A DNA stretch of 27,756 bases from a virus: IMG/VR virus record IMGVR_UViG_3300037875_000660, positions 1 to 27,756 of that record; one strand, written 5' to 3'. The number at the start of each line of letters is the position of its first letter. Positions within the stretch are counted from its first letter, which is position 1. The notes beneath the pieces are model-generated. The model did no database searches and was not told where the DNA came from. It saw only the letters and a program-made list of their open reading frames with translations. Shown piece by piece: positions 1-25,375 of the stretch. The position numbers were made by a program, and so were the translations under genes.

Positions 1-36
1 TACAGGTAGATTTAAAGCCTTTCCTTGGCTTGACAT
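1..36 (-). CDS. Partial small array protein, cut by the window edge
   Basis: The minus strand shows GAAAGGGG, six bases, then ATG at 36-34, and an open frame (MSSQGKALNLPV) running off the left edge. It is the eighteenth cassette of the leftward array: the same 5' stem-loop as its neighbours lies upstream at 75-119. The leader is longer than elsewhere and contains an 11-codon frame (39-74, MADKPNSIERG) that ends just before this start. Only 12 codons are visible, so no function can be given. Confidence 0.6.
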   Translation of the reverse strand, partial: MSSQGKALNLPV

Positions 37-74
37 ATTTAACCCCTTTCAATAGAGTTTGGCTTGTCTGCCAT

Positions 75-119
75 TGCGATAATCCCGGACCCCCAACGTG
101 GGAACCCATCGTTATCGCA
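75..119 (-). promoter_or_regulatory. Array 5' stem-loop 1 (long class)
   Basis: Outer arms TGCGATAA and TTATCGCA close a mostly paired 45-base rod. The inner part keeps the GGGTTCCC...GGGGG pattern of the long class. Unlike the other copies it is not directly followed by a Shine-Dalgarno site; about 30 bases intervene. Confidence 0.75.
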
Positions 120-148
120 TAAAATAAAAAGAAGAGAAATAAAAAAGA

Positions 149-172
149 ACCCACCCCCCGAAGGGGATGGGT
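149..172 (-). terminator. Terminator of the 121-residue Cys-pair gene
   Basis: ACCCACCCC pairs with GGGATGGGT around a CCGAA loop. On the minus strand it is followed by TTCTTTTTTATT, as expected for a factor-independent terminator of leftward transcripts. The plus-strand side also carries a short T tract, so it may work both ways. Confidence 0.8.
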
Positions 173-192
173 CTTTTTCGTAGAAATCGAGA

Positions 193-558
193 CTACGGCC
201 GAGCGTAGTACCGGAACGTGGGCCAGACGAATCCGGTCTTGAGCACCAAGTACCCCATTCGCTCGATGAGGTCATCGGCCTTCTCGAGGGCCATCTCATG
301 AACCCCGTGAATCATCTCGATGCGATCAGCGAACTGAGACTTGCTCTCATCCTTCTGCTGAACATCCTTCCGGTCACCGAGGTCGACTTTCCGGGACTTG
401 AAGATCCCGTCGCACGCCTTCTCGAAGAGGTGCTGGTAGAGATCATTTTCCGTCTCTGGGCACATGTAGTGAGTGTTGAGCACTTCACCGTTCTTGTCCC
501 TCTCCACCGGATCCGACAGTTCTGTCAAACAATTTGAGCACTGAATTTGAGTCTTCAT
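193..558 (-). CDS. Small array protein with N-terminal Cys pair, unknown function
   Basis: 121 residues, starting at 558 after GGGGAG with a three-base gap to ATG. Cysteines at 7 and 10 (CSNC), plus Cys33, suggest a metal-binding knuckle at the N terminus; a fourth ligand is not obvious. The remainder is charged and probably helical (residues 75-105) and ends in an aromatic/basic tail (FRYYARP). The stop codon lies in a six-pair hairpin: ACTACG at 192-197 with CGTAGT at 204-209. I recognise no family. Monocistronic by its bracketing stem-loop and terminator. Confidence 0.8.
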   Translation of the reverse strand: MKTQIQCSNCLTELSDPVERDKNGEVLNTHYMCPETENDLYQHLFEKACDGIFKSRKVDLGDRKDVQQKDESKSQFADRIEMIHGVHEMALEKADDLIERMGYLVLKTGFVWPTFRYYARP

Positions 559-576
559 AGACTCCCCTTTTCATGG

Positions 577-621
577 TGCGATATACGTGAGCCCCCAAAG
601 CGGGAACCCATCGTTATCGCA
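577..621 (-). promoter_or_regulatory. Array 5' stem-loop 2 (long class)
   Basis: Reading the minus strand, TGCGATA pairs with TATCGCA, then ACG with CGT, TGGG with CTCA and CCC with GGG around a GCTTT loop, with single-base bulges. It is followed at once by CCATGAAAAGGGGAG, the ribosome site of the next gene. Confidence 0.85.
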
Positions 622-649
622 TAAAATAAGAATGAGAGAATAAAAGAAA

Positions 650-673
650 ACCCACCCCCCTTAGGGGGTGGGT
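650..673 (-). terminator. Terminator of the 115-residue gene
   Basis: ACCCACCCCC and GGGGGTGGGT form ten pairs around a short loop, followed on the minus strand by TTTTCTTTTATT. Confidence 0.85.
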
Positions 674-695
674 AGTCTCTTGTGGGGAAGAAGCC

Positions 696-1043
696 TTACA
701 GCTTTCTCTTCCCCTTCATGTATTCGATCAGCAGGGCGGGAGCCTTGTGCTCCTCCCTGTTGATCACCTTGATCACCTTGCCGAGATACTCAGTGGTGAT
801 CTTGCCACCGAAGAGCCACTTCATGACTTCCTTCGCAACCTTCGGCTGGCGCGTTACTGCGCTCAGCATCTGGTTGATTTTGGTCAGCTGCGCGGTTTTC
901 TTCTCCGCGAGCAGAGCATCTTGCAGAGCTTTGCGGTCCGCTGCCTTCTTCTGCAGCCAAGCCCTCTGATCTTCATTCGCCTCGGCCGCATCCTTGTCGG
1001 AAATGGCCGGGACCCATACAGTACTTGGACGATCGAAGTTCAT
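696..1043 (-). CDS. Small helical basic array protein, unknown function
   Basis: 115 residues. I place the start at 1043 (MNFDRP), just after GAAAGAGAGAAG. A longer reading from 1085 would translate the regulatory stem-loop and is not believable. The middle (residues 18-60) is rich in Ala, Lys, Glu and Gln and looks like a long helix; the C-terminal half is basic (ends KGKRKL). The stop codon sits in the six-base apex of a strong hairpin, GGGGAAGA (684-691) with TCTTCCCC (707-714) plus an inner AGC/GCT. No family recognised. Confidence 0.78.
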   Translation of the reverse strand: MNFDRPSTVWVPAISDKDAAEANEDQRAWLQKKAADRKALQDALLAEKKTAQLTKINQMLSAVTRQPKVAKEVMKWLFGGKITTEYLGKVIKVINREEHKAPALLIEYMKGKRKL

Positions 1044-1063
1044 AACTTCTCTCTTTCCATGAG

Positions 1064-1108
1064 TGCGATATACGCGAGCCCCCAACGTGGGAACCCATCG
1101 TTATCGCG
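1064..1108 (-). promoter_or_regulatory. Array 5' stem-loop 3 (long class)
   Basis: The same rod as its neighbour, with a CG step added at the base (ATGCGCGATAACG). The inner arm reads CTCGCG instead of CTCACG. Confidence 0.8.
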
Positions 1109-1138
1109 CATAAAAAGAATAAGAGAATATAAAAAAGA

Positions 1139-1160
1139 ACCCACCCCCGAAGGGGTGGGT
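1139..1160 (-). terminator. Terminator of the 125-residue gene
   Basis: ACCCACCCC and GGGGTGGGT pair around CGAA. The minus-strand tail is TTCTTTTTTATATT. Confidence 0.85.
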
Positions 1161-1182
1161 CTTTGTCATCTCGAGTCACCGT

Positions 1183-1560
1183 TCACCGTTCAAGACCGTC
1201 GAGTTTCTCCGCCTTCTCTAGAAGATCCAGAGATAACGTGCAATCGAACATCGCAATGTTCTTTATTGCTGCCGGCAATCTCCTAATGAACTCATCGGGC
1301 GAGTTTGCACCCATCCGATTGATGATAGTGCGGACCTCTTCGAGGTTTACCTCAACGAAAGAGGTAATCCCTGGCTCTCTCTCAACCAGGGTTGGCATCA
1401 GCCAGACTTCGAAATTGCGGTCGAAGCTTTTCGCGACGACTACTTCCACGAAGATCGTTTCGCCAATGCACCCTACTTCTAGGGGCCGCTCATCTATGAA
1501 CGCATAGATAGGCGACCTCCTCGGCCAAACTAGAGACAGTAGCTTAGTCAGAATACGCAT
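1183..1560 (-). CDS. Small acidic array protein, unknown function
   Basis: 125 residues, starting at 1560 (MRILTK) six bases after an AGGAG core. It has a short hydrophobic/basic N terminus (residues 1-15), then alternating hydrophobic strands (ETIFVEVVVAKSF) and a helical, acidic C-terminal half (LDLLEKAEKLDGLER). It has two cysteines and no recognisable motif. The stop lies in a loop closed by CTCGA (1170-1174) and TCGAG (1199-1203), one of the weaker stop hairpins of the array. Confidence 0.78.
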   Translation of the reverse strand: MRILTKLLSLVWPRRSPIYAFIDERPLEVGCIGETIFVEVVVAKSFDRNFEVWLMPTLVEREPGITSFVEVNLEEVRTIINRMGANSPDEFIRRLPAAIKNIAMFDCTLSLDLLEKAEKLDGLER

Positions 1561-1580
1561 AGTATTCTCCTTTCCTTGGA

Positions 1581-1624
1581 TGCGATAATCCCAGGCCCCA
1601 AAGCGGGAACCCATCGTTATCGCA
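1581..1624 (-). promoter_or_regulatory. Array 5' stem-loop 4 (long class)
   Basis: Outer arms TGCGATAA/TTATCGCA. The inner 3' arm is CCTGGGA rather than CTCACGTA. It is followed by CCAAGGAAAGGAGAA, a linker type shared with the 31-residue gene at 5376. Confidence 0.82.
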
Positions 1625-1651
1625 TAAAAAAAGAAATGAGAATAAAAAAGA

Positions 1652-1675
1652 GCCCTACCCCCGAAGGGGTAGGGT
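1652..1675 (-). terminator. Terminator of the 54-residue membrane gene
   Basis: CCCTACCCC and GGGGTAGGG pair around CGAA. The A-T pair inside the stem is moved relative to the CCCACCCC copies, with its partner changed too. Minus-strand tail CTCTTTTTTATTC. Confidence 0.85.
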
Positions 1676-1698
1676 CTTCTTGAGATGTAGCGATTAAG

Positions 1699-1863
1699 CT
1701 ACTTCTTCGTGAGGTGATGTTTCACCCCATCGATTCTGCGCGCCAACCTGACGATCTCCTGCTTGGAGAACTCAGGCTTCCCTGAAGACTTCTTCTCCAG
1801 AGCATCGATCCTGCAAAAGAGCAGGAAGTTGACCACGACCAGTGCGATGACCATGATTTCCAT
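1699..1863 (-). CDS. Single-pass membrane microprotein
   Basis: 54 residues, starting at 1863 (MEIMVIAL) after GGAGG. Residues 3-17 (IMVIALVVVNFLLFC) form one membrane helix at the very N terminus. It is followed by a basic, soluble tail rich in Lys and Arg, presumably on the cytoplasmic side if the N terminus faces out. It has no lipobox and no recognised family. The stop codon is in the 3' arm of GTAGC/GCTAC (1687-1702), whose loop is shared in sequence with the next cassette's 3' region. Confidence 0.75.
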   Translation of the reverse strand: MEIMVIALVVVNFLLFCRIDALEKKSSGKPEFSKQEIVRLARRIDGVKHHLTKK

Positions 1864-1881
1864 GGTGCCTCCGTTTCTTGG

Positions 1882-1904
1882 TGCCATAACCCAACGTTAT
1901 GGCA
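1882..1904 (-). promoter_or_regulatory. Array 5' stem-loop 5 (short class)
   Basis: A perfect nine-pair stem, TGCCATAAC with GTTATGGCA, around a five-base loop. It is followed by CCAAGAAACGGAGG. Confidence 0.85.
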
Positions 1905-1931
1905 TATAAAAAAAGAAAATGATAAAAGAAA

Positions 1932-1953
1932 ACCCACCCCCGAAGGGGTGGGT
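1932..1953 (-). terminator. Terminator of the 201-residue gene
   Basis: ACCCACCCC and GGGGTGGGT pair around CGAA. Minus-strand tail TTTTCTTTTATC. Confidence 0.85.
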
Positions 1954-1971
1954 GATCTTGGGATGTAGCGA

Positions 1972-2577
1972 TTAAGAAGAATCGCGTCTACCTTGGCACC
2001 AGGAATAATTGGACTTTGAAGTCCAATACATCCAAGTACTCAGGTACCGAGAGAAACTCTCCCGGATCGAGCCACTGTCGTCGGCGGGAAGATTCCCAAT
2101 CATCGGTTGGGAAACCGATAACTTCCATGCTTCTTCCACATGGCATCCCTTGGAGGCGTCGAGCACTGGCTTGTCCAGCACTACTTTGCTCGCCTTGAGA
2201 GTTGCTCCCGATCCGCTTTCAAAGCAGACTGAGACGCAATTCTCTTCGGTGAGTTCATCCCACACCTCGTCAAATCCTTCGCCTTCAGCCTCTGCGAAAG
2301 TCTTGACGAGATCTTCGTCAAGGACTGAGAAGTCCCGGCCACCGGTCCATGCTCCAGACCGGCTGGGGTACACAGCATCTTCTCGGGGGAGTTCCCCTTC
2401 GAAGAGCTTTCCGACATCCGTGTGTGCCGCGAATACACGACATACACATGCCCAGGAAACCACTGCCTCAAACAGAAGACATCGCAGTGGCAAGCCTTCC
2501 CTTCTGAGCTTCCTTGTCGATACTGTATCTGGCGTTGAGACCAGACCCTCCGACTGCTCTACAGAAAATGTTGACAT
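1972..2577 (-). CDS. Largest array protein, acidic, reading frame uncertain at 5' end
   Basis: 201 residues from an ATG at 2577, nine bases after AAAGG, the longest gap in the array; an ATG at 2595 is an alternative. Residues 60-130 (GKLFEGELPRED through DELTEENCVSVCF) are clearly protein-like and acidic. The first 60 codons look less typical than those of the overlapping frame (DVNIFCRAVGGSGLNARYS), so a frameshift near 2470 is possible. The stop lies in a hairpin, GTAG-CGATT with AATCG-CTAC (1965-1991). No family recognised. Confidence 0.6.
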   Translation of the reverse strand: MSTFSVEQSEGLVSTPDTVSTRKLRREGLPLRCLLFEAVVSWACVCRVFAAHTDVGKLFEGELPREDAVYPSRSGAWTGGRDFSVLDEDLVKTFAEAEGEGFDEVWDELTEENCVSVCFESGSGATLKASKVVLDKPVLDASKGCHVEEAWKLSVSQPMIGNLPADDSGSIRESFSRYLSTWMYWTSKSNYSWCQGRRDSS

Positions 2578-2597
2578 CAGAGTATACCTTTCCATGG

Positions 2598-2642
2598 TGC
2601 GATATACGTGAGCCCCCAACGCGGGAACCCATCGTTATCGCA
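2598..2642 (-). promoter_or_regulatory. Array 5' stem-loop 6 (long class)
   Basis: Outer arms TGCGATA/TATCGCA. The apical loop reads GCGTT where most copies have GCTTT. Confidence 0.85.
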
Positions 2643-2670
2643 TAAAATAAGAATGAGAGAATAAAAAAAG

Positions 2671-2692
2671 ACCCCACCCGTAAGGGTGAGGT
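2671..2692 (-). terminator. Terminator of the 59-residue zinc-knuckle gene
   Basis: ACCCCACCC and GGGTGAGGT pair around GTAA with one mismatch. Minus-strand tail CTTTTTTTATTC. Confidence 0.82.
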
Positions 2693-2698
2693 CTATTG

Positions 2699-2878
2699 TC
2701 ACTCAGGAGAAAGTTCATCTCTCCATGCCTCCGTGAGGGAGAACTTGCACAGCTGACAAAGGATTACACCCCTTGCCCGGCGCTCTCCCTCTACCTCGAG
2801 GGGGTCGTAACCGTTCCCGTCGTCCAACCCGAGCTTTTTTTCGCAGTCATCGCAGAGAAGCTTGTCTTCTTCTTCCAT
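2699..2878 (-). CDS. Two-knuckle (CxxC...CxxC) zinc-ribbon-like microprotein
   Basis: 59 residues, starting at 2878 six bases after AAAGGA. Cys9-x2-Cys12 (CDDC) and Cys41-x2-Cys44 (CQLC) are the arrangement of a small zinc ribbon, so zinc binding is a fair inference. The N terminus is acidic (MEEEDK) and the linker is rich in Gly and Asp. Such ribbons often touch nucleic acid or RNA polymerase, but nothing here shows the partner. The stop is at the base of an imperfect CTCA-GGAG/CTCC-TGAG hairpin. Confidence 0.75.
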   Translation of the reverse strand: MEEEDKLLCDDCEKKLGLDDGNGYDPLEVEGERRARGVILCQLCKFSLTEAWRDELSPE

Positions 2879-2893
2879 TAGATTTCCTTTCTA

Positions 2894-2936
2894 GCGATAT
2901 ACGTGAGCCCCCAAAGCGGGAACCCATCGTTATCGC
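2894..2936 (-). promoter_or_regulatory. Array 5' stem-loop 7 (long class)
   Basis: GCGATA/TATCGC outer arms, with the extra CG step at the base as in copy 3. It is followed by TAGAAAGGAAATCTA, a linker shared with copies 8, 10 and 14. Confidence 0.82.
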
Positions 2937-2965
2937 GCATAAAAAGAATGAGAGAATAAAAGAAA

Positions 2966-2987
2966 ACCCACCCCCGAAGGGGTGGGT
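2966..2987 (-). terminator. Terminator of the 91-residue gene
   Basis: ACCCACCCC and GGGGTGGGT pair around CGAA. Minus-strand tail TTTTCTTTTATTC. Confidence 0.85.
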
Positions 2988-2992
2988 CTTTG

Positions 2993-3268
2993 TCACCCCT
3001 TGTGCTTATACAAGGGGCAAATCTTCTCGCCTTCAAGCTGTCCAGCGACACCGGCCGACACCAGATACTTGGTGCGCAGCCAGACGGCCTGCGAGAACAG
3101 GCTATCTGGGACTTCAGCATTCGCTGTACATCCCACGACGACCGGTCGTCCAGCGACACCCCGCCACAGCACTGACACCATCCCCGTCTCTTCGCGGAGG
3201 GCGCAGCTTTCGCAGGGAATCTTCCCTCCTACGAAGTCGTTCGCTGTCAACATACCATCGATTGGCAT
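2993..3268 (-). CDS. Small Cys-containing array protein, unknown function
   Basis: 91 residues, starting at 3268 (MPIDGM) after AAAGGA. It has CESC at residues 19-22, a further Cys at 48 and one near the C terminus (KICPLYKHKG), so four cysteines could form a metal site. Residues 30-48 look like beta strands (MVSVLWRGVAGRPVVVGC). A perfect eight-pair hairpin, CCCCTTGT (2996-3003) with ACAAGGGG (3010-3017), lies immediately before the stop codon in the mRNA. No family recognised. Confidence 0.75.
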   Translation of the reverse strand: MPIDGMLTANDFVGGKIPCESCALREETGMVSVLWRGVAGRPVVVGCTANAEVPDSLFSQAVWLRTKYLVSAGVAGQLEGEKICPLYKHKG

Positions 3269-3285
3269 AACAGATTTCCTTTCTG

Positions 3286-3327
3286 GCGATACGTGAGCCC
3301 CCAAAGCGGGAACCCATCGTTATCGCA
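3286..3327 (-). promoter_or_regulatory. Array 5' stem-loop 8 (long class)
   Basis: As copy 7, but two bases shorter in the 3' arm (CACGTATCGCC). This removes the bulge seen in copies 2, 6 and 7. Confidence 0.82.
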
Positions 3328-3356
3328 TAAAAAAAGAAATGAGAGAATAAAAAAGA

Positions 3357-3380
3357 GCCCTACCCCCGAAGGGGTAGGGT
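3357..3380 (-). terminator. Terminator of the coiled-coil gene
   Basis: CCCTACCCC and GGGGTAGGG pair around CGAA, the same variant as at 1652. Minus-strand tail CTCTTTTTTATTC. Confidence 0.85.
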
Positions 3381-3388
3381 CTTCTAAG

Positions 3389-3571
3389 CTACTTCTGAAT
3401 CGACTGCTGAATCGACTGCAGCTTTTCCCACAGCTTATCGATGTAGGCGCCTTGCTTGTCAATCAGCGCCTCCTGATCCTTGATCAGTGCTTCCTGCTTT
3501 CTGAGCAGGGCACTCTGATCCTTGATCAGGCGATCCTGGTCCACCATCAAGTCGACACGTTCGTTGGCCAT
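3389..3571 (-). CDS. Near-pure heptad-repeat coiled-coil microprotein
   Basis: 60 residues, starting at 3571 five bases after AGGAGG. From residue 8 to the end it is a run of seven-residue units (LIKDQSA, LLRKQEA, LIKDQEA, LIDKQGA, YIDKLWE), with hydrophobic a/d positions and charged or Gln positions elsewhere. This predicts a parallel coiled coil, probably a dimer or trimer. It has no other domain, so it is likely an oligomerisation partner or a decoy for a host coiled coil; that role is inference. The underlying DNA is repetitive. The stop is in AAGCT/AGCTT. Confidence 0.82.
   Translation of the reverse strand: MANERVDLMVDQDRLIKDQSALLRKQEALIKDQEALIDKQGAYIDKLWEKLQSIQQSIQK
3395..3418. repeat. 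12-base tandem duplication at the end of the coiled-coil gene
   Basis: CTGAATCGACTG occurs twice head to tail. It encodes the repeated SIQQ-like end of the coiled coil. Confidence 0.85.
3473..3529. repeat. Direct repeats under the heptads
   Basis: CTGATCCTTGATCAG occurs at 3473-3487 and again at 3515-3529. The offset is 42 bases, exactly two heptads, which points to growth of the gene by unit duplication. Confidence 0.85.
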
Positions 3572-3590
3572 GATGGCCTCCTTTTCTTGG

Positions 3591-3638
3591 TGCCATTAAA
3601 CCCGTGAGTCCCCACCATGGGAACCCACCGTTATGGCA
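3591..3638 (-). promoter_or_regulatory. Array 5' stem-loop 9 (long class)
   Basis: TGCCAT/ATGGCA outer arms. The inner stem GTGGGTTCCC with GGGGACTCAC makes ten pairs including two G-T, around an ATGGT loop. This is the most stable copy. Confidence 0.85.
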
Positions 3639-3664
3639 TATGAAAATAAATAGAATAAAAAAGA

Positions 3665-3688
3665 ACTCACTCTCCGAAGAGAGTGAGT
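3665..3688 (-). terminator. Terminator of the 46-residue basic gene
   Basis: ACTCACTCTC and GAGAGTGAGT form ten perfect pairs around CGAA. The stem sequence differs from the CCCACCCC type at several positions, each with its partner changed. A second hairpin, ACCAGCA/TGCTGGT (3694-3723), lies between it and the stop codon. Confidence 0.85.
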
Positions 3689-3747
3689 CTTTTACCAGCA
3701 CCTGAGGGAGAAACCCTGCTGGTTAGGTTCCGACAGAAAAGCCTAAA

Positions 3748-3888
3748 TTAGGCCGGACTGCGGGCAGCCTTTTTCTTGGCTTGCTCGCCGTTCGCCGCCG
3801 AAGAAGACTTCTTCACGCGCTTGGCTTTGTTGGCCTGCGTGTGGGCCAGTCTTTCGGCCGGCGTCCAGTCCGAGTGGGACCTTGGCAT
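3748..3888 (-). CDS. Highly basic Lys/Ala-rich microprotein
   Basis: 46 residues, starting at 3888 (MPRSHSDW) after AAAGGA. From residue 14 on it is dominated by Lys, Arg, Ala, Gln and Ser (KAKRVKKSSS, QAKKKAARSPA), which suggests a disordered or nucleic-acid-binding peptide. It has no hydrophobic core. The stop is within the short palindrome GCCTAAATTAGGC (3741-3753). Function unknown; a DNA- or RNA-binding role is only inferred from charge. Confidence 0.72.
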   Translation of the reverse strand: MPRSHSDWTPAERLAHTQANKAKRVKKSSSAANGEQAKKKAARSPA

Positions 3889-3905
3889 AGTAGATTTCCT
3901 TTCTA

Positions 3906-3947
3906 GCCATGCTGATGCCTCCCACCATGGGAACCCAGCGTTATGGC
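3906..3947 (-). promoter_or_regulatory. Array 5' stem-loop 10 (long class)
   Basis: GCCAT/ATGGC, then GCTG/CAGC, then CCCA/TGGG. The second stem segment replaces the ACG/CGT segment of the GCGAT copies. Confidence 0.82.
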
Positions 3948-3973
3948 ATAAAATAAGAATAAGAATAAAAAAG

Positions 3974-4001
3974 AACCCCACCCCCCGAAGGGGATGGAGT
4001 T
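3974..4001 (-). terminator. Terminator of the 83-residue gene
   Basis: AACCCCACCC with GGGATGGAGTT, with two mismatches and a CCCGAA loop. Minus-strand tail CTTTTTTATTC. Confidence 0.8.
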
Positions 4002-4021
4002 CTTTGGCAAAGAGAGGCTGC

Positions 4022-4273
4022 CTATCTCTTGATACGAGACAGCCTCTTTACGGCCCAACTCGCCACTCGCAGGACTGCGAGTTCGATCTTGTCTCTCGAG
4101 ACAAGATCCTCGAGCCGTAAGATAGTCTCCTCGTTGAGAGAGACTATCTCACGTTCATGTGTTACTGCAAGGGCTCTGATCAGCCCTCGCAGTCGCCCGA
4201 TCTCCTCCACGGAAAGTCGGCTATAGCCAACGATCTTCAGGAGGTTCTGAACGTCCTCAGAGGGGGCACCCAT
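4022..4273 (-). CDS. Small helical array protein, unknown function
   Basis: 83 residues, starting at 4273 (MGAPSED) after GGAGGAGCC. It is probably all helix, with leucine-rich amphipathic segments (EEIGRLRGLIRALAV and KIELAVLRVASWAVKRL). It is cysteine-free and has a strongly basic C terminus (RLSRIKR). The stop falls in the bulge of a 12-pair hairpin, AGAGGCTG (4013-4020) with CAGCCTCT (4040-4047) plus TCTC/GAGA inside. No family recognised. Confidence 0.78.
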   Translation of the reverse strand: MGAPSEDVQNLLKIVGYSRLSVEEIGRLRGLIRALAVTHEREIVSLNEETILRLEDLVSRDKIELAVLRVASWAVKRLSRIKR

Positions 4274-4292
4274 GGCTCCTCCGTTCCTTGGT

Positions 4293-4340
4293 TGCCATTC
4301 AACCCGTGAGTCCCCACCATGGGAACCCACCGTTATGGCA
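4293..4340 (-). promoter_or_regulatory. Array 5' stem-loop 11 (long class)
   Basis: Nearly identical to copy 9. One base differs in the outer 3' segment (GGGTTGAATGGC against GGGTTTAATGGC). Confidence 0.85.
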
Positions 4341-4367
4341 TAGAAAGAGAAATGAGAATAAAAGAAA

Positions 4368-4389
4368 ACCCACCCCCGAAGGGGTGGGT
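4368..4389 (-). terminator. Terminator of the 53-residue gene
   Basis: ACCCACCCC and GGGGTGGGT pair around CGAA. Minus-strand tail TTTTCTTTTATTC. Confidence 0.85.
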
Positions 4390-4418
4390 GATCTTGGGAC
4401 TGGTGATCTAGGGACTAG
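4389..4418. repeat. 15-base tandem repeat at a stop codon
   Basis: TGATCTTGGGACTGG is followed directly by TGATCTAGGGACTAG. Each copy can pair with TCCCAGATC at 4451-4459, so the stop-codon hairpin of this gene has two alternative arms. Confidence 0.75.
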
Positions 4419-4576
4419 TGGCTGCCGCCGTGCAGGTCCACCTTCACGTATCCCAGATCCTTTACGATTTCGAGCACTTCTGTCCAAGAAAGAAACAACT
4501 TATGGTGTTTCTTCTTGTAGGACTCGATCACGGAGATGAACTCTAGTTCATCTGCGCTCAGTGACTTGGGCTTCAT
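4415..4576 (-). CDS. Small array protein with basic/His patch, unknown function
   Basis: 53 residues, starting at 4576 five bases after AGGAGG. The order is an acidic N-terminal helix (SLSADELEFISVIESY), a KKKHHK patch, then an amphipathic segment (WTEVLEIVKDLGYVKVDL), ending HGGSH. The pattern resembles a small helical domain, but I cannot assign a family. Its leader, from stem-loop to start codon, is almost identical to that of the next gene to the right. Confidence 0.75.
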   Translation of the reverse strand: MKPKSLSADELEFISVIESYKKKHHKLFLSWTEVLEIVKDLGYVKVDLHGGSH

Positions 4577-4596
4577 AGAGCCCTCCTTTTCTTAGA

Positions 4597-4617
4597 GCCA
4601 TAACCCAGCGTTATGGC
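4597..4617 (-). promoter_or_regulatory. Array 5' stem-loop 12 (short class)
   Basis: Perfect eight-pair stem GCCATAAC/GTTATGGC around a five-base loop. It is followed by TAAGAAAAGGAGG. Confidence 0.85.
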
Positions 4618-4645
4618 ATATAAATAAGAAGAGAATAAAAAAGAA

Positions 4646-4669
4646 CTCCACCCCCCGGAGGGGGTGGAG
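4646..4669 (-). terminator. Terminator of the 76-residue gene
   Basis: CTCCACCCCC and GGGGGTGGAG form ten perfect pairs around CGGA. Minus-strand tail TTCTTTTTTATTC. Confidence 0.85.
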
Positions 4670-4689
4670 CTGAGGATAGTGATCTCAGG

Positions 4690-4920
4690 TTAGCTAGACC
4701 TGAAGATCACTAGCACCGGGTAGTGCATGCGAGGAAGGAGTTCGTAAGTTCTCCTTCCCCCCGCTGCGATAGTCTTGGTTTTGAACCCTTTCAGGTTTCG
4801 ATCCAAGTACTGATCGCATTCCCCAAGGAACTTTTTAAGCTCCTTGGAGGTCCCCTCAAACTCTTCGCGGATGTCTGTTTCTCCGCCGAGTCCGAGGAAT
4901 TGGGCTTTGAAATGTTTCAT
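4690..4920 (-). CDS. Small alpha/beta array protein, unknown function
   Basis: 76 residues, starting at 4920 (MKHFKAQF) after AGGAGG. A strand-like start is followed by a charged helix (residues 18-45), a basic segment and a final strand (YPVLVIFRSS). Its stop codon is at the apex of the strongest stop hairpin of the array: nine pairs TAGTGATCT/AGATCACTA plus five pairs CAGGT/ACCTG, loop of seven, 4677-4712. No family recognised. Confidence 0.78.
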   Translation of the reverse strand: MKHFKAQFLGLGGETDIREEFEGTSKELKKFLGECDQYLDRNLKGFKTKTIAAGGRRTYELLPRMHYPVLVIFRSS

Positions 4921-4940
4921 AGAGCCCTCCTTTTCTTGGA

Positions 4941-4961
4941 GCCATAACCCAACGTTATGGC
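4941..4961 (-). promoter_or_regulatory. Array 5' stem-loop 13 (short class)
   Basis: GCCATAAC/GTTATGGC stem, loop GTTGG. It differs from copy 12 only in one loop base and the flank. Confidence 0.85.
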
Positions 4962-4988
4962 ATATAATAAGAATGAGAATAAAAAAGA

Positions 4989-5012
4989 ACTCACTCTCCG
5001 AAGAGAGTGAGT
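4989..5012 (-). terminator. Terminator of the 61-residue gene
   Basis: ACTCACTCTC/GAGAGTGAGT around CGAA, the same stem as at 3665. Minus-strand tail TTCTTTTTTATTC. Confidence 0.85.
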
Positions 5013-5065
5013 CTTTGCCATTTTCTGTTCCCAGGCATGGCTGCCCGGCAAGAAGCAGGGGAGGA

Positions 5066-5251
5066 TTACTCCTTCCCCTGCTCCTTGCGGTGTGCCTGCA
5101 TAGCGATTATTGCCGCCAGGCTACTGTGGTCATAGACCGACAACATCTGGCTGAGCTGAGCCGCCCATGCAGGCGCGGCCTTCAGGCGTGCCAACGCTTT
5201 CGCGAAGTGCACCTTGAAGGCCTCCTCCTCTTCAGGAGGGACAATGCTCAT
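5066..5251 (-). CDS. Small helical Ala-rich array protein
   Basis: 61 residues, starting at 5251 after AAAGGA. An acidic N terminus (PPEEEE) leads into two amphipathic helices (residues 11-38 and 43-58). The stop codon is the loop of a 12-pair hairpin (5054-5082, AGCAGGGGA with TCCCCTGCT plus an inner GGA/TCC). The 3' untranslated sequence (about 5013-5045) resembles that of the 67-residue gene at 6301. Function unknown. Confidence 0.75.
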   Translation of the reverse strand: MSIVPPEEEEAFKVHFAKALARLKAAPAWAAQLSQMLSVYDHSSLAAIIAMQAHRKEQGKE

Positions 5252-5265
5252 AGATTTCCTTTCTA

Positions 5266-5307
5266 GCGGCGCCAGTACTTCCCACCATGGGAACCCGGCG
5301 TTGCCGC
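5266..5307 (-). promoter_or_regulatory. Array 5' stem-loop 14 (long class)
   Basis: GCGGC/GCCGC outer arms replace GCGAT/ATCGC. The inner CCCATGGTGGG is kept. This copy is good evidence for selection on pairing. Confidence 0.82.
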
Positions 5308-5340
5308 ATATAAAAAAGAAAAGAAGAAATAAAAAAGAGC

Positions 5341-5368
5341 CCTCTCTACCCCCGAATGGGCAGAGAGG
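5341..5368 (-). terminator. Terminator of the 31-residue gene
   Basis: CCTCTCT/AGAGAGG, a mismatch, then CCC/GGG around CCGAAT. Minus-strand tail CTCTTTTTTATTTC. Confidence 0.82.
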
Positions 5369-5375
5369 ACTCGCG

Positions 5376-5471
5376 CTATGCGATAAACCAGGCGAGCAGC
5401 CATACTGCCAGCCAGACGGCCAACAGCATAGCGACTGCAATCTCCTGGTTAGGGGGACGCTTGATCACCAT
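5376..5471 (-). CDS. 31-residue Trp-rich membrane microprotein
   Basis: Starts at 5471 after an AGGAG core. The N terminus is basic and soluble (MVIKRPPNQE); residues 11-31 are one membrane helix with three tryptophans (LLAVWLAVWLLAWFIA), reaching the stop codon. Topology by the positive-inside rule: N terminus in the cytoplasm. It could be a toxin-like or envelope-modifying peptide, but that is inference. It is real because it has the full cassette (stem-loop, ribosome site, terminator). The stop is inside CTCGC/GCGAG. Confidence 0.75.
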   Translation of the reverse strand: MVIKRPPNQEIAVAMLLAVWLAVWLLAWFIA

Positions 5472-5490
5472 GATCTTCTCCTTTCCTTGG

Positions 5491-5507
5491 TGCGCGGCGT
5501 ACCCGCA
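5491..5507 (-). promoter_or_regulatory. Array 5' stem-loop 15 (short class)
   Basis: The shortest copy, with GCGG pairing CCGC around GTACG. It is followed by CACCAAGGAAAGGAGAA. Confidence 0.7.
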
Positions 5508-5536
5508 TATAAATAAGAAAAGAGAATAAAAAGAAA

Positions 5537-5560
5537 ACCCACCCCTGTGAGGGGGTGGGT
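5537..5560 (-). terminator. Terminator of the 97-residue gene
   Basis: ACCCACCCC with GGGGTGGGT around TGTGAG. Minus-strand tail TTTTCTTTTTATTC. Confidence 0.85.
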
Positions 5561-5568
5561 TACTACTG

Positions 5569-5862
5569 CTAACAGCCCATCATGGACTGGTAGCAGTTGG
5601 CCTTGACGATCTTTCGATCAATCAAGACCCGGAGGTATTGCTCACCACCATTGGTAAGCAATACGGCTGCCTTGGGTTCTGTGTACCCATCGGTCCCGGT
5701 TATACGGTATACGACTGCCGTCCACTCACCACTGGTGAGAGTGAACATGCTCGTACACCGCGGTAGGCAGCCTTCTTGGAAGGCGCCTCCTACCGGCGTT
5801 GCGGCTCCCATGTCCAGAGACAGAGTCTCCGAAGCATGGGAGGTAGAGCGGAATACCATCAT
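5569..5862 (-). CDS. Small beta-rich array protein, paralogue of the next gene
   Basis: 97 residues, starting at 5862 (first of two ATGs) six bases after AGGAGG. The second half aligns with the neighbour at 5968: MFTLTSGEW...ITGTDG...VLLTNGGEQYLRVLIDR against MLTLTPEGI...LTGCNP...LVLTNGECVIEITHSR. It has four cysteines (32, 36, 90, 97). The pattern suggests a small beta domain. Stop in ACTGCTA/TAGCAGT (5565-5597). Family unknown. Confidence 0.8.
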   Translation of the reverse strand: MMVFRSTSHASETLSLDMGAATPVGGAFQEGCLPRCTSMFTLTSGEWTAVVYRITGTDGYTEPKAAVLLTNGGEQYLRVLIDRKIVKANCYQSMMGC

Positions 5863-5882
5863 AGTATTCCTCCTTTTCTTGG

Positions 5883-5905
5883 TGCTATGGCCCTATGCCA
5901 TGGCA
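5883..5905 (-). promoter_or_regulatory. Array 5' stem-loop 16 (short class)
   Basis: TGCCATGGC with GCCATAGCA, nine positions with one mismatch. The upper stem changes from ATAAC/GTTAT to ATGGC/GCCAT. Confidence 0.8.
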
Positions 5906-5925
5906 TAAGAAGAAGAAAAAAGAAA

Positions 5926-5949
5926 ACCCACCCCTGTGAGGGGGTGGGT
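5926..5949 (-). terminator. Terminator of the 59-residue gene
   Basis: ACCCACCCC/GGGGTGGGT around TGTGAG. The G-rich arm runs into a TGGGTG repeat, so the C-rich arm has several possible partners. Confidence 0.82.
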
Positions 5950-5965
5950 GTGGGTGTGGGTGTGG
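5945..5965. repeat. TGGGTG tandem repeat, 3.5 copies
   Basis: Three full TGGGTG units and a half unit, between the terminator and the stop codon of the 59-residue gene. The last copies also pair with CCACCACC to form the stop-codon hairpin. Confidence 0.85.
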
Positions 5966-5967
5966 CC

Positions 5968-6147
5968 CTACCACCACCGGGAATGCGTGATTTCAATCAC
6001 ACACTCGCCGTTGGTGAGCACCAGCGGGGAGTTGTCATCTCCTTCTGGTGGGTTACACCCCGTGAGGGTGATGACCTCGTGGCCATCAACCTCCTCCAGA
6101 AGGCCAATGCCCTCTGGAGTTAGAGTAAGCATGTTGTAGTACATCAT
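5968..6147 (-). CDS. Small beta-rich array protein, paralogue of the previous gene
   Basis: 59 residues, starting at 6147 five bases after GGAGG. Short and acidic, with predicted strands and a C-terminal LVLTNGECVIEITHSRWW that matches the LLTNGGEQYLRVLIDRK region of the neighbour. It looks like the same domain without the neighbour's N-terminal 30 residues, so the pair probably arose by cassette duplication. Stop lies by GGTGTGG/CCACCACC. Confidence 0.78.
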   Translation of the reverse strand: MMYYNMLTLTPEGIGLLEEVDGHEVITLTGCNPPEGDDNSPLVLTNGECVIEITHSRWW

Positions 6148-6167
6148 ACTTACCTCCGTTTCTTGGA

Positions 6168-6189
6168 GCCATGGCCCTATTGCCATGGC
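6168..6189 (-). promoter_or_regulatory. Array 5' stem-loop 17 (short class)
   Basis: Perfect eight-pair GCCATGGC/GCCATGGC around a six-base loop. It is followed by TCCAAGAAACGGAGG. Confidence 0.85.
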
Positions 6190-6218
6190 ATAAGAATAAA
6201 AAATATAAAAAAAAGAAA

Positions 6219-6243
6219 ACCCACCCCCTATGAGGGAGTGGGT
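6219..6243 (-). terminator. Terminator of the 67-residue gene
   Basis: ACCCAC/GTGGGT, one mismatch, CCC/GGG, loop TATGA. The minus-strand T tract is long. Confidence 0.85.
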
Positions 6244-6300
6244 GTGCCATTTCTGTTGCCACGCATGGCTGCGCCGAATCTTATTCGGAGTGCCAGGCTG

Positions 6301-6504
6301 TTACTCCTTGGTACGCAGCAAGGCTTTGCCAGTTTTGAAACTGACGAAGCCCGCGCGCATCAGGAGCTGCCCAGTGCACCATCCGATGACTTTCATCACC
6401 GGACGCACAACGGGCCAGCCGAGCTTGGCGATTCTGACCACGGTCTGAAACAGACCATGCAGCATCTCGCCAAGCACTGACACCCAGTTAAGGAAACCTA
6501 CCAT
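6301..6504 (-). CDS. Small hydrophobic/amphipathic array protein
   Basis: 67 residues, starting at 6504 (MVGFLNWV) six bases after AGGAG. It is almost entirely hydrophobic with regularly spaced Lys/Arg (LFQTVVRIAKLGWPVVRPVMKVIG), which suggests one or two membrane-associated amphipathic helices; the tail is basic. It is the promoter-proximal gene of the array. Its leader has an extra GGAAC/GTTCC hairpin between stem-loop and ribosome site, partly duplicating the linker. Stop in CCAGG/CCTTGG. Function unknown; membrane-active is an inference. Confidence 0.75.
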   Translation of the reverse strand: MVGFLNWVSVLGEMLHGLFQTVVRIAKLGWPVVRPVMKVIGWCTGQLLMRAGFVSFKTGKALLRTKE

Positions 6505-6540
6505 GGCAGGCTCCTTTCCTGGAACTATCCGTTCCTTGGA

Positions 6541-6561
6541 GCCACGACCCATTGTCATGGC
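6541..6561 (-). promoter_or_regulatory. Array 5' stem-loop 18 (short class)
   Basis: GCCATGAC with GTCGTGGC: eight positions, one of them a G-T pair, loop AATGG. It has no terminator upstream; a run of nine C on the minus strand takes that place. Confidence 0.82.
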
Positions 6562-6616
6562 ATAAAAAAAAGAAGATGGGGGGGGGCATGAAACGCCAAG
6601 CACCCAATTCTGCATA

Positions 6617-6667
6617 TATATAAACTGTTCAGGAGCCCAGTCTGAGATTTTTCGACTTATATAAACT
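6617..6667 (-). repeat. Two TATATAAACT direct repeats
   Basis: Identical ten-base motifs at 6617-6626 and 6658-6667, just upstream of the first array cassette. Their number, AT-richness and place suggest promoter or activator sites; this is not proven. Confidence 0.55.
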
Positions 6668-6703
6668 ATCAAAAAAAATATACAATAAAATTTTCAAACT
6701 CAT
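6629..6703 (-). CDS. Possible 24-residue hydrophobic leader peptide
   Basis: ATG at 6703 lies five bases after GAGGAG on the minus strand and opens a 24-codon frame (MSLKILLYIFFDSLYK...) ending in TGA. The ribosome site is good, but the frame overlaps the repeats and has no array-type stem-loop. It may be chance. Confidence 0.25.
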   Translation of the reverse strand: MSLKILLYIFFDSLYKSKNLRLGS

Positions 6704-6715
6704 GGATTCTCCTCA

Positions 6716-6744
6716 TTGCGAGGCGGCCGGGAATAAGATACTAT
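6716..6744 (+). promoter_or_regulatory. Sigma70-like promoter for the reductase
   Basis: TTGCGA (6716-6721), a 17-base spacer, then TACTAT (6739-6744), about 50 bases before the reductase start. Each box matches the consensus at four of six positions. Confidence 0.45.
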
Positions 6745-6793
6745 TGAAGGTTCGCACTAATCTATTATCGACTGTGATGGAAGGAAACTGGGG

Positions 6794-8746
6794 ATGGTCA
6801 AGTTCTCTAATGAGGCAGCAGAGTTTGTTTACACACGTACGTACTCGAGGTGGATAGAAAAAGAAAACAGAAGAGAACACTGGGATGAAACAGTAAAACG
6901 ATATACAACATTCTTGCATAAACACATGCAGGACAAAGTTCCTGCAAAGACATACAAGAAGATATACGACTCAATACTTTCCTTCGACGTAATGCCCTCC
7001 ATGCGGTCCCTCTGGGCTGCAGGCCCCGCGGCGGAACAAGACAACATATGCATGTACAATTGTTCATTCCAGGTAATAGACAATCCAATAGTCTTCTCAG
7101 AAGCACTATATATACTAATGTGTGGTACAGGCTATGGGTTTTCAGTAGAAGAACAGCATGTATCTAACCTCCCAGAGGTCGCTCAGTTCTGCGATGAGCG
7201 TTATACAAAGAAGTATACCATTGAGGACTCTAAGCGCGGGTGGGCTAATTCCGTTAGGCTTCTAATCGACTCACTTTATGAGGGCCATGATGTCGAAATG
7301 GACTATTCAGAAATAAGACCTAAAGGCTCTCTCCTCCATACAATGGGCGGAAGGTCCTCTGGACCCGAACCCTTGGTTCAGCTCCATGCATTTATGCGTG
7401 AGATATTTCAACATGCACAGGGCAGAAAACTCACCTCACTTGAGTGTCATGATATTATGAATCAAATTGCGGAGATAGTTGTTGTCGGTGGCGTACGCAG
7501 GTCTTCGCAGATATCATTATCTGATTTATCAGATACCGAAATGGCCGAAGCCAAGATATGGCCGTTTCCTCTCCGTAGAGCCATGGCGAACAACAGTGCT
7601 GTATATAACGCTAAGCCTACTGCCACAGACTTTCTCGGGGAGTGGAGCACGATTGCTGCCTCAGGAACCGGAGAAAGAGGAATGTTCAATCTAGAGAATG
7701 CTCAAAAACGCGCACCGCGGCGCCGAGATGGTACTTTAATCGCCGGAACGAATCCCTGTGCAGAAATAAGTCTCAGAAATCAAGAGTTCTGTAATTTGTC
7801 GGAAGTTGTGGTACGAGCAGGTGATGATTTAGATAATCTGTTTAAAAAGATAGAAACAGCTGTATGGATAGGGGCTATACAGTCCTGTTTTACGCATTTT
7901 CCGTATTTGAACGAAAGCTGGAAAACAAACTGTGATGAAGAACGTCTCCTAGGTGTATCGTTTACTGGAATTATGGATAACCATTCGCTTTTGTCCGATG
8001 ATGCGTTAAGGGCTATGAAGCGTAAAGCTATTAAGGTAGCTAAGCATGCTGCCGAAAAACTTAACATTAATACTCCAGCAGCTATTACTTGTGTAAAACC
8101 CTCCGGCACTGTATCTCAGCTTGTTAACTCTGCCTCCGGAATACATACTAGATTTGCAAAATACTATAGAAGGAGATATAGGATATCTAGTACAGATCCT
8201 TTATTCAGAATGCTGTGGGACCAAGGACTTAAAATGTCCCCCGAAAATGGACAAAGAGAGTCTGACTGGGAAAAGGCTGCAGGAGGAGATCCTGCTGCCT
8301 GCAGCATATACGAAGAAAATATGAGCTGGAGTAATGACAAAGTAATGACCTGGGTGGCTACGTTCCCTATCGAGTCACCCAAAGATTCTATAATGCGGTC
8401 TGACATGACTGCCGTCGATCAGCTAGAACAGTACAAGAGGCTACAAAGAAACTGGTGTGAGCATAACGCTAGTTGTACTATTTATGTTCAAGACAATGAA
8501 TGGTTTGAAGTAGGCAATTGGGTGTATGGTAATTGGGATCTAATCAATGGAGTATCGTTTCTTCCATACGATGGAGGTAGATATGAGCAGGCCCCTTACG
8601 AGGAATGCACAGAAAAAGAATATAAAGAACTACTTGCAAACTTGCCAAGAATAAATTATGGTAAACTTAGCATGTATGAAAAAGAAGATGGCACCGAAGG
8701 TGCCAAAACTTGGGCATGCAGCGGAGATAAATGCGAGTTAATTTAG
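6794..8746 (+). CDS. nrdJ: Class II ribonucleoside-triphosphate reductase (adenosylcobalamin-dependent)
   Basis: Reduces ribonucleoside triphosphates to deoxynucleotides for phage DNA synthesis, using a radical generated from adenosylcobalamin. It has 650 residues, somewhat shorter than the Lactobacillus enzyme (about 739). The active site is NPCAEIS at 320-326: Asn320, radical Cys322 and Glu324, with Cys333 eleven residues on, matching Cys408/Cys419 of that enzyme. Cys90 (NCSF) is the likely partner of the redox pair. Cys642 and Cys647 near the C terminus fit the reducing shuttle. It lacks a visible second subunit, as expected for the monomeric class. Start: ATG after AAGGA with an eight-base gap. 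It depends on a cobalamin source, presumably the host. Flanked by its own promoter and terminator. Confidence 0.93.
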   Translation: MVKFSNEAAEFVYTRTYSRWIEKENRREHWDETVKRYTTFLHKHMQDKVPAKTYKKIYDSILSFDVMPSMRSLWAAGPAAEQDNICMYNCSFQVIDNPIVFSEALYILMCGTGYGFSVEEQHVSNLPEVAQFCDERYTKKYTIEDSKRGWANSVRLLIDSLYEGHDVEMDYSEIRPKGSLLHTMGGRSSGPEPLVQLHAFMREIFQHAQGRKLTSLECHDIMNQIAEIVVVGGVRRSSQISLSDLSDTEMAEAKIWPFPLRRAMANNSAVYNAKPTATDFLGEWSTIAASGTGERGMFNLENAQKRAPRRRDGTLIAGTNPCAEISLRNQEFCNLSEVVVRAGDDLDNLFKKIETAVWIGAIQSCFTHFPYLNESWKTNCDEERLLGVSFTGIMDNHSLLSDDALRAMKRKAIKVAKHAAEKLNINTPAAITCVKPSGTVSQLVNSASGIHTRFAKYYRRRYRISSTDPLFRMLWDQGLKMSPENGQRESDWEKAAGGDPAACSIYEENMSWSNDKVMTWVATFPIESPKDSIMRSDMTAVDQLEQYKRLQRNWCEHNASCTIYVQDNEWFEVGNWVYGNWDLINGVSFLPYDGGRYEQAPYEECTEKEYKELLANLPRINYGKLSMYEKEDGTEGAKTWACSGDKCELI

Positions 8747-9064: not shown

Positions 9065-9782
9065 TGAGCCTAACAATCTTCCTGCGCCCCTTCCTGAACC
9101 CAACAGCATAGCTATCTCAGGCAACAAAGCATTAACCGAAGTACAAAAAAACAATATAGCTAAATACGAAGAATCAGTTAAATATGGTTTTACTCCTATG
9201 GCTGGACCTATGGTGTGTAGGGATGATAAATGCCCATACTTCGACAAATGCCCATTAGTGAGGAATAGTATAGATAGACCTATGGGCGAGGACTGCCCCG
9301 TAGAGGCTTTTCAAATAAAACAATGGACTGAACAATTTAGTGCGGCTGCGGCCATAGATCCAGATGATCCATCTTCCGCATATGACAGAATGTTAGTGGA
9401 TCAAATAGTATTCCAAATGACGCTTGAGGCAAGAGCTGCTATGCAGCTTGCTCTTGACCCAAGAATAGAAAGAAAAGCAGTTAGTGGATATAGTCCTACT
9501 GGCCAGCCTTTTTACGCTACAGAAAATTCAAAGGCTGCAGAATTTTATGAAAAATTAGTTAAAACAAAACTTAGGATTATGCGCGAGCTACTAACTACAA
9601 GAAAATCTAAAGCGGATGCAGCTTCCAAGGGATATGCCGATCCCTCAAAAGTCGCTGCGCACCTTATGGAGAAGGCAAAGAAAATACGTCTTGCTTCGCA
9701 ACATTCTGATGGCAGCGTCAGCGCGACAGAAATAGAAATGCATGAGTCTAGTCCCAAAGCCCCCGAAGTATTTGGTGAATAA
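9021..9782 (+). CDS. Four-cysteine protein, candidate small terminase subunit
   Basis: 253 residues. A disordered Pro-rich N terminus (residues 10-30) precedes a cluster Cys66-x4-Cys71-Pro-x4-Cys77-Pro...Cys92-Pro, which should bind zinc or an iron-sulphur cluster. Residues 110-230 are helical, and the C terminus is charged. In tailed phages the gene before the large terminase is commonly the small terminase, which binds phage DNA. Here four genes intervene, so the role is inferred from the cluster's start position and the DNA-binding-like composition. The stop TAA overlaps the next ATG. Confidence 0.55.
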   Translation: MSSINHFGPGVTVPDEPNNLPAPLPEPNSIAISGNKALTEVQKNNIAKYEESVKYGFTPMAGPMVCRDDKCPYFDKCPLVRNSIDRPMGEDCPVEAFQIKQWTEQFSAAAAIDPDDPSSAYDRMLVDQIVFQMTLEARAAMQLALDPRIERKAVSGYSPTGQPFYATENSKAAEFYEKLVKTKLRIMRELLTTRKSKADAASKGYADPSKVAAHLMEKAKKIRLASQHSDGSVSATEIEMHESSPKAPEVFGE

Positions 9783-25329: not shown

Positions 25330-25358
25330 TTGACATAGGGTTGGCCCGGGAGTAATAC
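25330..25358 (+). promoter_or_regulatory. Sigma70-like promoter overlapping the capsid terminator
   Basis: A perfect TTGACA (25330-25335), a 17-base spacer, then TAATAC (25353-25358), which lies in the loop of the following hairpin. A transcript starting about seven bases later would lack the 5' arm of the terminator and so would not form it. Confidence 0.45.
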
Positions 25359-25375
25359 ACTCCCGGGCATTTTTT
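25344..25375 (+). terminator. Terminator after the major capsid gene
   Basis: GCCCGGGAGT pairs perfectly with ACTCCCGGGC (ten pairs) around AATAC, followed by ATTTTTT. The next ribosome site starts directly after the T tract. Confidence 0.92.

Follow-up and report, generated by a model that had tools for sequence, protein, structure and literature searches.

The virus record IMGVR_UViG_3300037875_000660 from IMG/VR comprises 27,756 bases, and the window analysed here is this whole record. From position 6794 onward, its plus strand carries genes with PHROG matches to ribonucleotide reductase, terminase, portal, head protease and major head protein; these matches in the right arm identify the virus as a tailed double-stranded DNA phage. 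An array of 18 units takes up the minus strand between 6564 and 1. In each of them a predicted hairpin precedes a gene, and an intrinsic terminator is predicted at 17 of 17 gene-to-gene borders. A first-pass annotation had described 18 single-gene cassettes with a stem-loop and a terminator each, a description that holds for all hairpins and borders, the terminator of unit 18 being the part that is not seen. It had also counted 17 complete tiny genes and a partial one. The complete open reading frames (ORFs) lie between 6504 and 193, encode 31-201 amino acids (aa) and each follow the hairpin and a purine-rich Shine-Dalgarno site, but the leftmost gene (P0001), of which the window holds only a part, is large: in L008, a contig nearly identical to the window, it stays open for at least 855 codons (1-2567, minus strand), until the contig end.

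L008 contains the same array and prolongs it leftward by 2531 bases. It shows 0 differences from the window over the first 6731 bases, which makes an assembly artefact unlikely, and 9 over all 18,743 bases compared. The array genes are mutually unrelated, save for a short likeness between units 3 and 13, while exact stretches of 40-49 bases are common to array borders; the borders, not the genes, are therefore the repeated thing. GC content at third codon positions (GC3) reaches only 0.37 in the right arm, compared with 0.66 for the array and 0.60 for P0001. A simple gene caller picked several antisense frames within the array. By codon log-odds based on the right-arm genes the sense frame of the array scores lowest (-0.15); based on P0001, the sense frame is slightly favoured (0.04 vs 0.00 to -0.11 in other frames).

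Hairpins, TATGC tracts and terminators

All 18 units have a predicted 5' hairpin, with a mean fold z-score of -2.9 (range -0.5 to -4.5), and by fold an inverted repeat thus lies directly upstream of the translation start in 18 of 18 units, one of them weak. The hairpins fall into six short ones, with an 8-bp stem and a loop of 5-6 bases, 11 long ones, and one with a weak 4-bp stem in unit 4, the weakest of all and that of the 31-aa gene. Their span varies from 24 to about 45 bases, the loops of the short forms are mostly at least 5 bases long, and GGG at the junction of loop and 3' arm is invariant in the six short hairpins. Compensatory changes were found at 3 of 18 pairs in the long hairpins (5 cells; 0 of 500 shuffles as high) and at 2 of 8 pairs in the short ones (5 cells; 3 of 500 shuffles as high). 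When the partner was slid by 1-3 columns, paired cells fell from 89% to 37-51% and from 98% to 21-40%.

The first-pass annotation had proposed searching this genome and other phages with a covariance model. Such a model, built from the 18 array hairpins and run on 29 sources (474,579 bases), recovered the same 18 hairpins in the window and the same 18 in L008; beyond the array, up to E 1, it gave only one antisense match in each of the two (E 0.36). Other hairpin pattern searches matched only the near-identical contig. A loose short-hairpin pattern (at most 3 mismatches) matched 3 of 15 records, namely L008 and, at one 3-mismatch place each, the relatives G003 and G004 described below; we regard these two places as chance, being outside the array side of those phages and missed by the covariance model.

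The word TATGC stands unchanged ahead of the hairpin in all 18 units. The sequence in front of it varies, and in every unit includes a tract of 19-29 bases without G directly before TATGC. These border elements go beyond the first-pass annotation, and they are specific to the array: the two strands of the window together hold 248 TATG words, exactly 18 of which have at least 19 G-free bases in front, and these are the array sites. In 16 of 18 hairpins the G of TATG takes part in the first or second base pair, and the other two stems begin two bases later. Hairpin promoters of the N4 type are small hairpins of fixed size, with a stem of 5-7 bp and a 3-base loop; this type was rejected for the array on account of the span and loops given above. 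A likeness to T4 late promoters on the other strand was judged by eye to be an A-rich coincidence.

Between 1 and 6800 there are 37 terminator-like sites, against a mean of 7.6 in shuffles, and in the right arm 25, against 16.7; a stricter script found 15 sites on the minus strand. No minus-strand terminator-like site lies ahead of unit 1. The array is thus real and well beyond chance. Given strong terminators at every border, transcription of 18 genes from a single promoter upstream would require antitermination. One alternative supposes just that: one long leftward transcript or a few, made with antitermination, would be cut in the unstructured U-rich tract by an enzyme like RNase E or RNase Y, and the new ends would be capped by the terminator hairpin on one side and the 5' hairpin on the other. 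The tract is indeed AU-rich and placed between two hairpins, and RNase E and RNase Y favour AU-rich single-stranded RNA (PMC3997798; here and below, statements on published work refer to those sections of the cited papers that were available). In addition, at no border was a sigma-70-like promoter directed toward the genes, and the TATATG of the leader ahead of the array is kept in three phages. However, 17 serial strong terminators would demand efficient antitermination, for which no element or gene was recognised, no systematic search having been made, and unit 1 keeps both the T-rich tract and TATGC though neither a gene border nor a terminator-like site precedes it. We consider the long-transcript explanation improbable.

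Relatives of the region and known phage systems

Two relatives, G003 (60.5 kb) and G004 (117.6 kb), have a common divergent layout, with the reductase gene running one way and a small GC-richer gene the other, and are 98.3% identical to each other across 2583 bases beside the array. Their alignment ends about ten bases past a common TTTTATTATATG, with nothing further at E up to 1, and short pieces (ATTCATG, a C-run) persist beyond its end. At the position of this element the window carries TTTATATATATG, and TATATG is invariant in all three aligned phages. Because the alignment breaks just past the shared TATATG, the two phages, otherwise nearly identical here, differ in their genes beyond this point. 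Gene content therefore shuffles between close relatives, as judged on the first visible array-side genes, the only ones to be seen, as both contigs end inside the region. These first leftward genes have a GC3 of 0.75 in G004 and 0.63 in G003, and the visible borders of the two phages are strongly folded (z -3.9 and -4.3). A nine-G run (C on the array strand) is found in the window at 6578-6586, just past the leader element; C-runs occur there in G003 and G004, with ATTCATG before them. The end of the G003 contig (L050 3439-3521) is a tandem repeat of about 28 bases, at which the assembly probably broke.

Searches with the G004 hairpin and with the G003 and G004 leaders brought no further contigs. 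A leader pattern matched six stretches, two of which were known phages, and the others (L061, L063, L064 and L065), without relatives of seven window proteins, were set aside as chance. By script no terminator array was found in the more distant reductase relatives L009, L011, L013 and L014, with L009 offering only 732 bases before the gene, and the terminase had no relative among the genome contigs.

We also compared distances among the units (six Mantel tests, 17 points). Hairpin distance correlated with the distance of the terminator after the unit's own gene (r 0.37, p 0.0004) and of the upstream tract (r 0.33, p 0.003), and gave r 0.17 (p 0.08) with the terminator of the preceding gene; with array position it gave r 0.38 (p 0.002), and terminator distance gave r 0.02. 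These data weakly favour whole units, rather than borders, as the thing exchanged. Unidirectional single-gene cassettes with imperfect hairpins between them are also what an integron-like array would present, with the hairpins as recombination sites. The core sites of integron attC are RYYYAAC and GTTRRRY. In the leaders (70 bases before TATGC to the start codon), however, RYYYAAC occurs in 0 of 18 and GTTRRRY in 4 of 18, no recombinase was detected by PHROG among 16 right-arm ORFs and the 9 of 17 array proteins scanned, and the hairpins stand 5' of the gene and are followed by a Shine-Dalgarno site. An integron-like origin is very improbable.

Parts of the array plan are known in other phages, and the full combination looks unusual. 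The first-pass statement that no named system has this layout was too strong, since PeSLs (promoter early stem-loops), SAS/ESAS repeats and the left end of phage P23-45 are near kinds; in the literature searched (open-licence papers), we met no description of a terminator, a TATG tract and a 5' hairpin together at every gene. A PeSL has a sigma-70-type early promoter beside its stem-loop, and details of those in T4-like phages are reportedly given by Arbiol (2010) and Comeau (2014). Published PeSLs of T4-like phages are composites of terminator and promoter between small genes, in an intensely shuffling region (PMC4503421). The array resembles them in the terminator stem-loop at each border and in the shuffling of gene content between close relatives. 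It differs in that no sigma-70-like promoter was found at its borders, where another host promoter type may be in use, in the extra hairpin at the 5' end of its predicted mRNAs, and in that no T4-like gene set was seen.

In cluster K mycobacteriophages, SAS/ESAS repeats precede many small non-structural genes (PMC3203893, PMC11373665). Inverted repeats near translation starts are described for Microbacterium phage cluster EG and mycobacteriophage cluster O (PMC7302621, PMC4351075); EF repeats likewise precede small genes, and the EG repeats are kept although the surrounding genes differ. The array shares with these systems the repeated inverted repeats directly upstream of the translation start of many small genes. 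By contrast, the published repeats stand before a subset of genes only, ESAS overlap SigA-like promoters, and the available sections report no terminator at every gene for SAS/ESAS, EG or O repeats. Within 1-6600, the array strand has no copy of the 13-bp start-associated sequence (SAS), GGGATAGGAGCCC, even when 2 mismatches are allowed, and a single one with 3.

In another explanation, the main role of the hairpin would be to bind a regulator, as the target of an RNA-binding translational repressor or as a DNA operator, and the units would form one regulon, as proposed for SAS/ESAS. A single hairpin family ahead of 18 different genes and the invariant GGG of the six short forms would suit such a site, and ESAS repeats hold putative promoters and may bind a regulator (PMC11373665). 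The array hairpins, however, preserve their pairing despite differences in stem sequence, in length (24 to about 45 bases) and in loop. This speaks for a conserved structure rather than a site recognised by its sequence, and a mainly regulatory role appears quite unlikely.

Near the left end of Thermus phage P23-45, an AT-rich motif recurs at 14 starts and a 26-base motif at seven terminator sites (PMC10770324). This pre-early region is like the array in its repeated start and terminator motifs, and P23-45 has a two-barrel RNA polymerase first spotted by DFDGD. It is unlike the array in that no 5' hairpin family is reported in the available sections, and P0001 has no detected similarity. As for the TATG word, late transcripts made by the non-virion RNA polymerase of phiKZ, an unusual multisubunit enzyme, start at the G of TATG (PMC4666361), the word that is found at 18 of 18 array units. 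In phiKZ, further downstream sequence is needed as well, and neither a G-free tract nor a hairpin is reported in the sections available; TATG being short, we regard the likeness as suggestive.

Proposed transcription of the units

Together, these observations appear to suggest a reading that we hold to be slightly better than an even bet: the array would consist of autonomous, insulated, monocistronic cassettes in a hypervariable region, exchanged as cassettes, whose RNA synthesis would begin at TATG or close to it and might be carried out by a polymerase of the phage. The parts of this reading differ in strength. That the units are independent transcription units is probable; an RNA start at TATG comes a little short of even chances; and action of a phage rather than the host polymerase on the array is put forward tentatively. 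The proposal of the first-pass annotation, a separate structured mRNA per gene, fits the anatomy, with border terminators and a start-like element and hairpin of its own in each unit, and the transcripts so predicted have computed lengths of 175-717 bases.

In the proposed mechanism, each cassette would run from a G-free T/C/A tract ending in TATGC through a 5' hairpin, a free Shine-Dalgarno site and one gene to an intrinsic terminator. The terminator would block readthrough and so insulate the next cassette, and the tract with TATG would start the next RNA, at or beside the G, so that the mRNA begins as a hairpin. RppH and RNase E require single-stranded 5' ends, and 5' secondary structure stabilises mRNA (PMC3997798); hairpin-capped mRNAs should therefore be stable. 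The hairpin would thus slow decay from the 5' end while leaving the Shine-Dalgarno site free, and ribosome access would become independent of flanking sequence, so that genes could be swapped without retuning their expression. If the units are truly insulated, each with its own start, structured 5' end and stop, nature would here have an equivalent of the insulated cassettes of synthetic biology, and the exchange of small genes among phages with expression left intact would be explained. The purpose of the array, as a swapping region of small phage genes, is probably ordinary, but its regular, fully insulated design is probably unusual.

The start does not appear to be sigma-70-like. In 1-6800 no sigma-70-like site was found on the array strand at any border, and the region as a whole holds 4 such sites vs 4.3 expected. 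The host polymerase might nevertheless read an unrecognised host promoter in the tract of a PeSL-type hyperplastic region, an explanation that shares the cassette plan of the preferred reading and changes only the polymerase. The terminator and start element at each border, together with gene swapping, follow the PeSL plan (PMC4503421), while the lack of any excess of sigma-70-like sites counts against it, insofar as the promoter type of the host does not differ; we judge this alternative rather unlikely. The rival explanations partly overlap with the preferred reading, and the likelihoods given here do not sum to one.

Under the preferred reading, the leading candidate for starting the cassettes would be an RNA polymerase of the phage's own, which might be the protein encoded in the last cassette. 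P0001 contains GGGCDFDGDQGSF, with DFDGDQ, which resembles the active-site motif of RNA polymerases. Two-barrel RNA polymerases carry DxDGD within a double-psi beta-barrel. In the beta' barrel of cellular-type polymerases, the motif that binds the metal is DxDGD (PMC7598289), and in P23-45 the DFDGD sequence led to a real polymerase in a protein without other detected similarity (PMC10770324). P0001 may thus be a phage RNA polymerase, which we treat as a weak lead. At its fullest, the array might be a phage-owned early expression system, in which a single-chain polymerase from the last cassette, a TATG promoter behind a G-free tract, hairpin-start mRNAs and private terminators serve exchangeable, plug-and-play cassettes; with all its parts taken together this seems unlikely. 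It nonetheless makes a testable claim, that the TATG element and the DFDGD protein are a phage promoter and polymerase pair.

Several observations weigh against the preferred reading or its parts. In the relatives, the TATGC hairpin family is absent from the visible G003 and G004 sequence by covariance model, the terminator script found none in the array direction in their visible region, and of their visible 5' untranslated regions that of G004 folds (z -2.7), unlike that of G003 (z -0.2, -0.6). Exchange of borders would suit the correlation between terminator and tract of the same border (r 0.24, p 0.04) as well as exchange of whole cassettes does, and the invariance of TATG, a short word, could stem from descent by border duplication. 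The leader of unit 18 holds a sigma-70-like site (30-58, plus strand; 10 of 12 matches) that points away from the array genes. As regards the hairpins, further pair types were not above shuffles (as high in 373 of 500 for the long and 490 of 500 for the short class), the count of doubly changed pairs was reached by 14 of 500 and 160 of 500 shuffles, respectively, and the long structure that was tested for covariation came from folding a single member of the set. That the small ORFs are coding is judged from their position, GC3 and Shine-Dalgarno sites rather than from diverged homologues. P0001 itself gave no polymerase match in Pfam (best E 0.22) or PHROGs (best E 0.35), only ligase and cadherin matches at E 0.03 or worse and no polymerases in the PDB, and no relative in 14 other phage records; both of its structure predictions were unusable (mean pLDDT 35.5 and 37.6), and strict DxDGD occurs once in 61,768 aa of long frames, near the number estimated for chance, about 0.3.

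Feature coordinates and further observations

Table 1. Leader element and units of the array, with positions in the window.
Feature	Position	Strand	Details
Leader element ACAGTTTATATATATG ahead of array	6613..6628	-	TATATG also in two relatives
Unit 1	6212..6564	-	TATGC and short hairpin; ORF 6504-6301, 67 aa; terminator 6243-6219
Unit 2	5919..6192	-	short hairpin; ORF 6147-5968, 59 aa; terminator 5949-5926
Unit 3	5530..5907	-	short hairpin, z -1.3; ORF 5862-5569, 97 aa; terminator 5561-5536
Unit 4	5332..5509	-	weak 4-bp hairpin, z -0.5; ORF 5471-5376, 31 aa, hydrophobic; terminator 5372-5337
Unit 5	4982..5310	-	long hairpin; ORF 5251-5066, 61 aa; terminator 5013-4988
Unit 6	4638..4964	-	short hairpin; ORF 4920-4690, 76 aa; terminator 4671-4644
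Unit 7	4361..4620	-	short hairpin; ORF 4576-4415, 53 aa; terminator 4389-4368
Unit 8	3968..4342	-	long hairpin; ORF 4273-4022, 83 aa; terminator 4005-3970
Unit 9	3658..3950	-	long hairpin; ORF 3888-3748, 46 aa, basic; terminator 3689-3664
Unit 10	3350..3640	-	long hairpin; ORF 3571-3389, 60 aa; terminator 3379-3358
Unit 11	2959..3329	-	long hairpin; ORF 3268-2993, 91 aa, one CxxC; terminator 2990-2963
Unit 12	2664..2941	-	long hairpin, stem begins 2 bases past G; ORF 2878-2699, 59 aa, two CxxC; terminator 2694-2669
Unit 13	1925..2644	-	long hairpin; ORF 2577-1972, 201 aa; terminator 1953-1932
Unit 14	1645..1906	-	short hairpin; ORF 1863-1699, 54 aa; terminator 1674-1653
Unit 15	1132..1626	-	long hairpin; ORF 1560-1183, 125 aa; terminator 1161-1138
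Unit 16	643..1112	-	long hairpin, stem begins 2 bases past G; ORF 1043-696, 115 aa; terminator 673-650
Unit 17	142..623	-	long hairpin; ORF 558-193, 121 aa, one CxxC; terminator 173-148
Unit 18	1..121	-	long hairpin and first 12 codons of P0001 gene; no terminator seen

Family searches gave no match at gathering scores in Rfam and no tRNA genes in the window. Annotated phages gave no match for window positions 1-8000 (near mode) or 1-6600 (distant mode), for 4 of the 17 complete array proteins, or for P0001; a 196-aa piece of P0001 gave three matches at E 6-7, which were treated as noise. The best E value was 0.018 for the 7 of 17 array proteins scanned with Pfam, short of every cut-off, and 0.034 for the 9 of 17 scanned with PHROGs. 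No relatives were detected for the array proteins searched; they are candidates for functions in host takeover, which may be the purpose they serve.

Among the array proteins, the best likeness is a stretch of about 28 aa common to those of units 3 (5569-5862) and 13 (1972-2577). Three others (2699-2878, 2993-3268 and 193-558) have CxxC pairs, with two pairs in the 59-aa one, and are in this respect like small zinc-binding proteins. In the right arm, residues 747-865 of a 999-aa protein (9782-12781) match PHROG 1706, annotated as CRISPR/Cas system associated, and a strong rightward terminator lies at 25344-25368, directly after the major head protein gene. Finally, the 117-kb relative has a frame of 2502 aa (L059 5598-13103) with an endolysin-type PHROG match, which is probably a virion protein.

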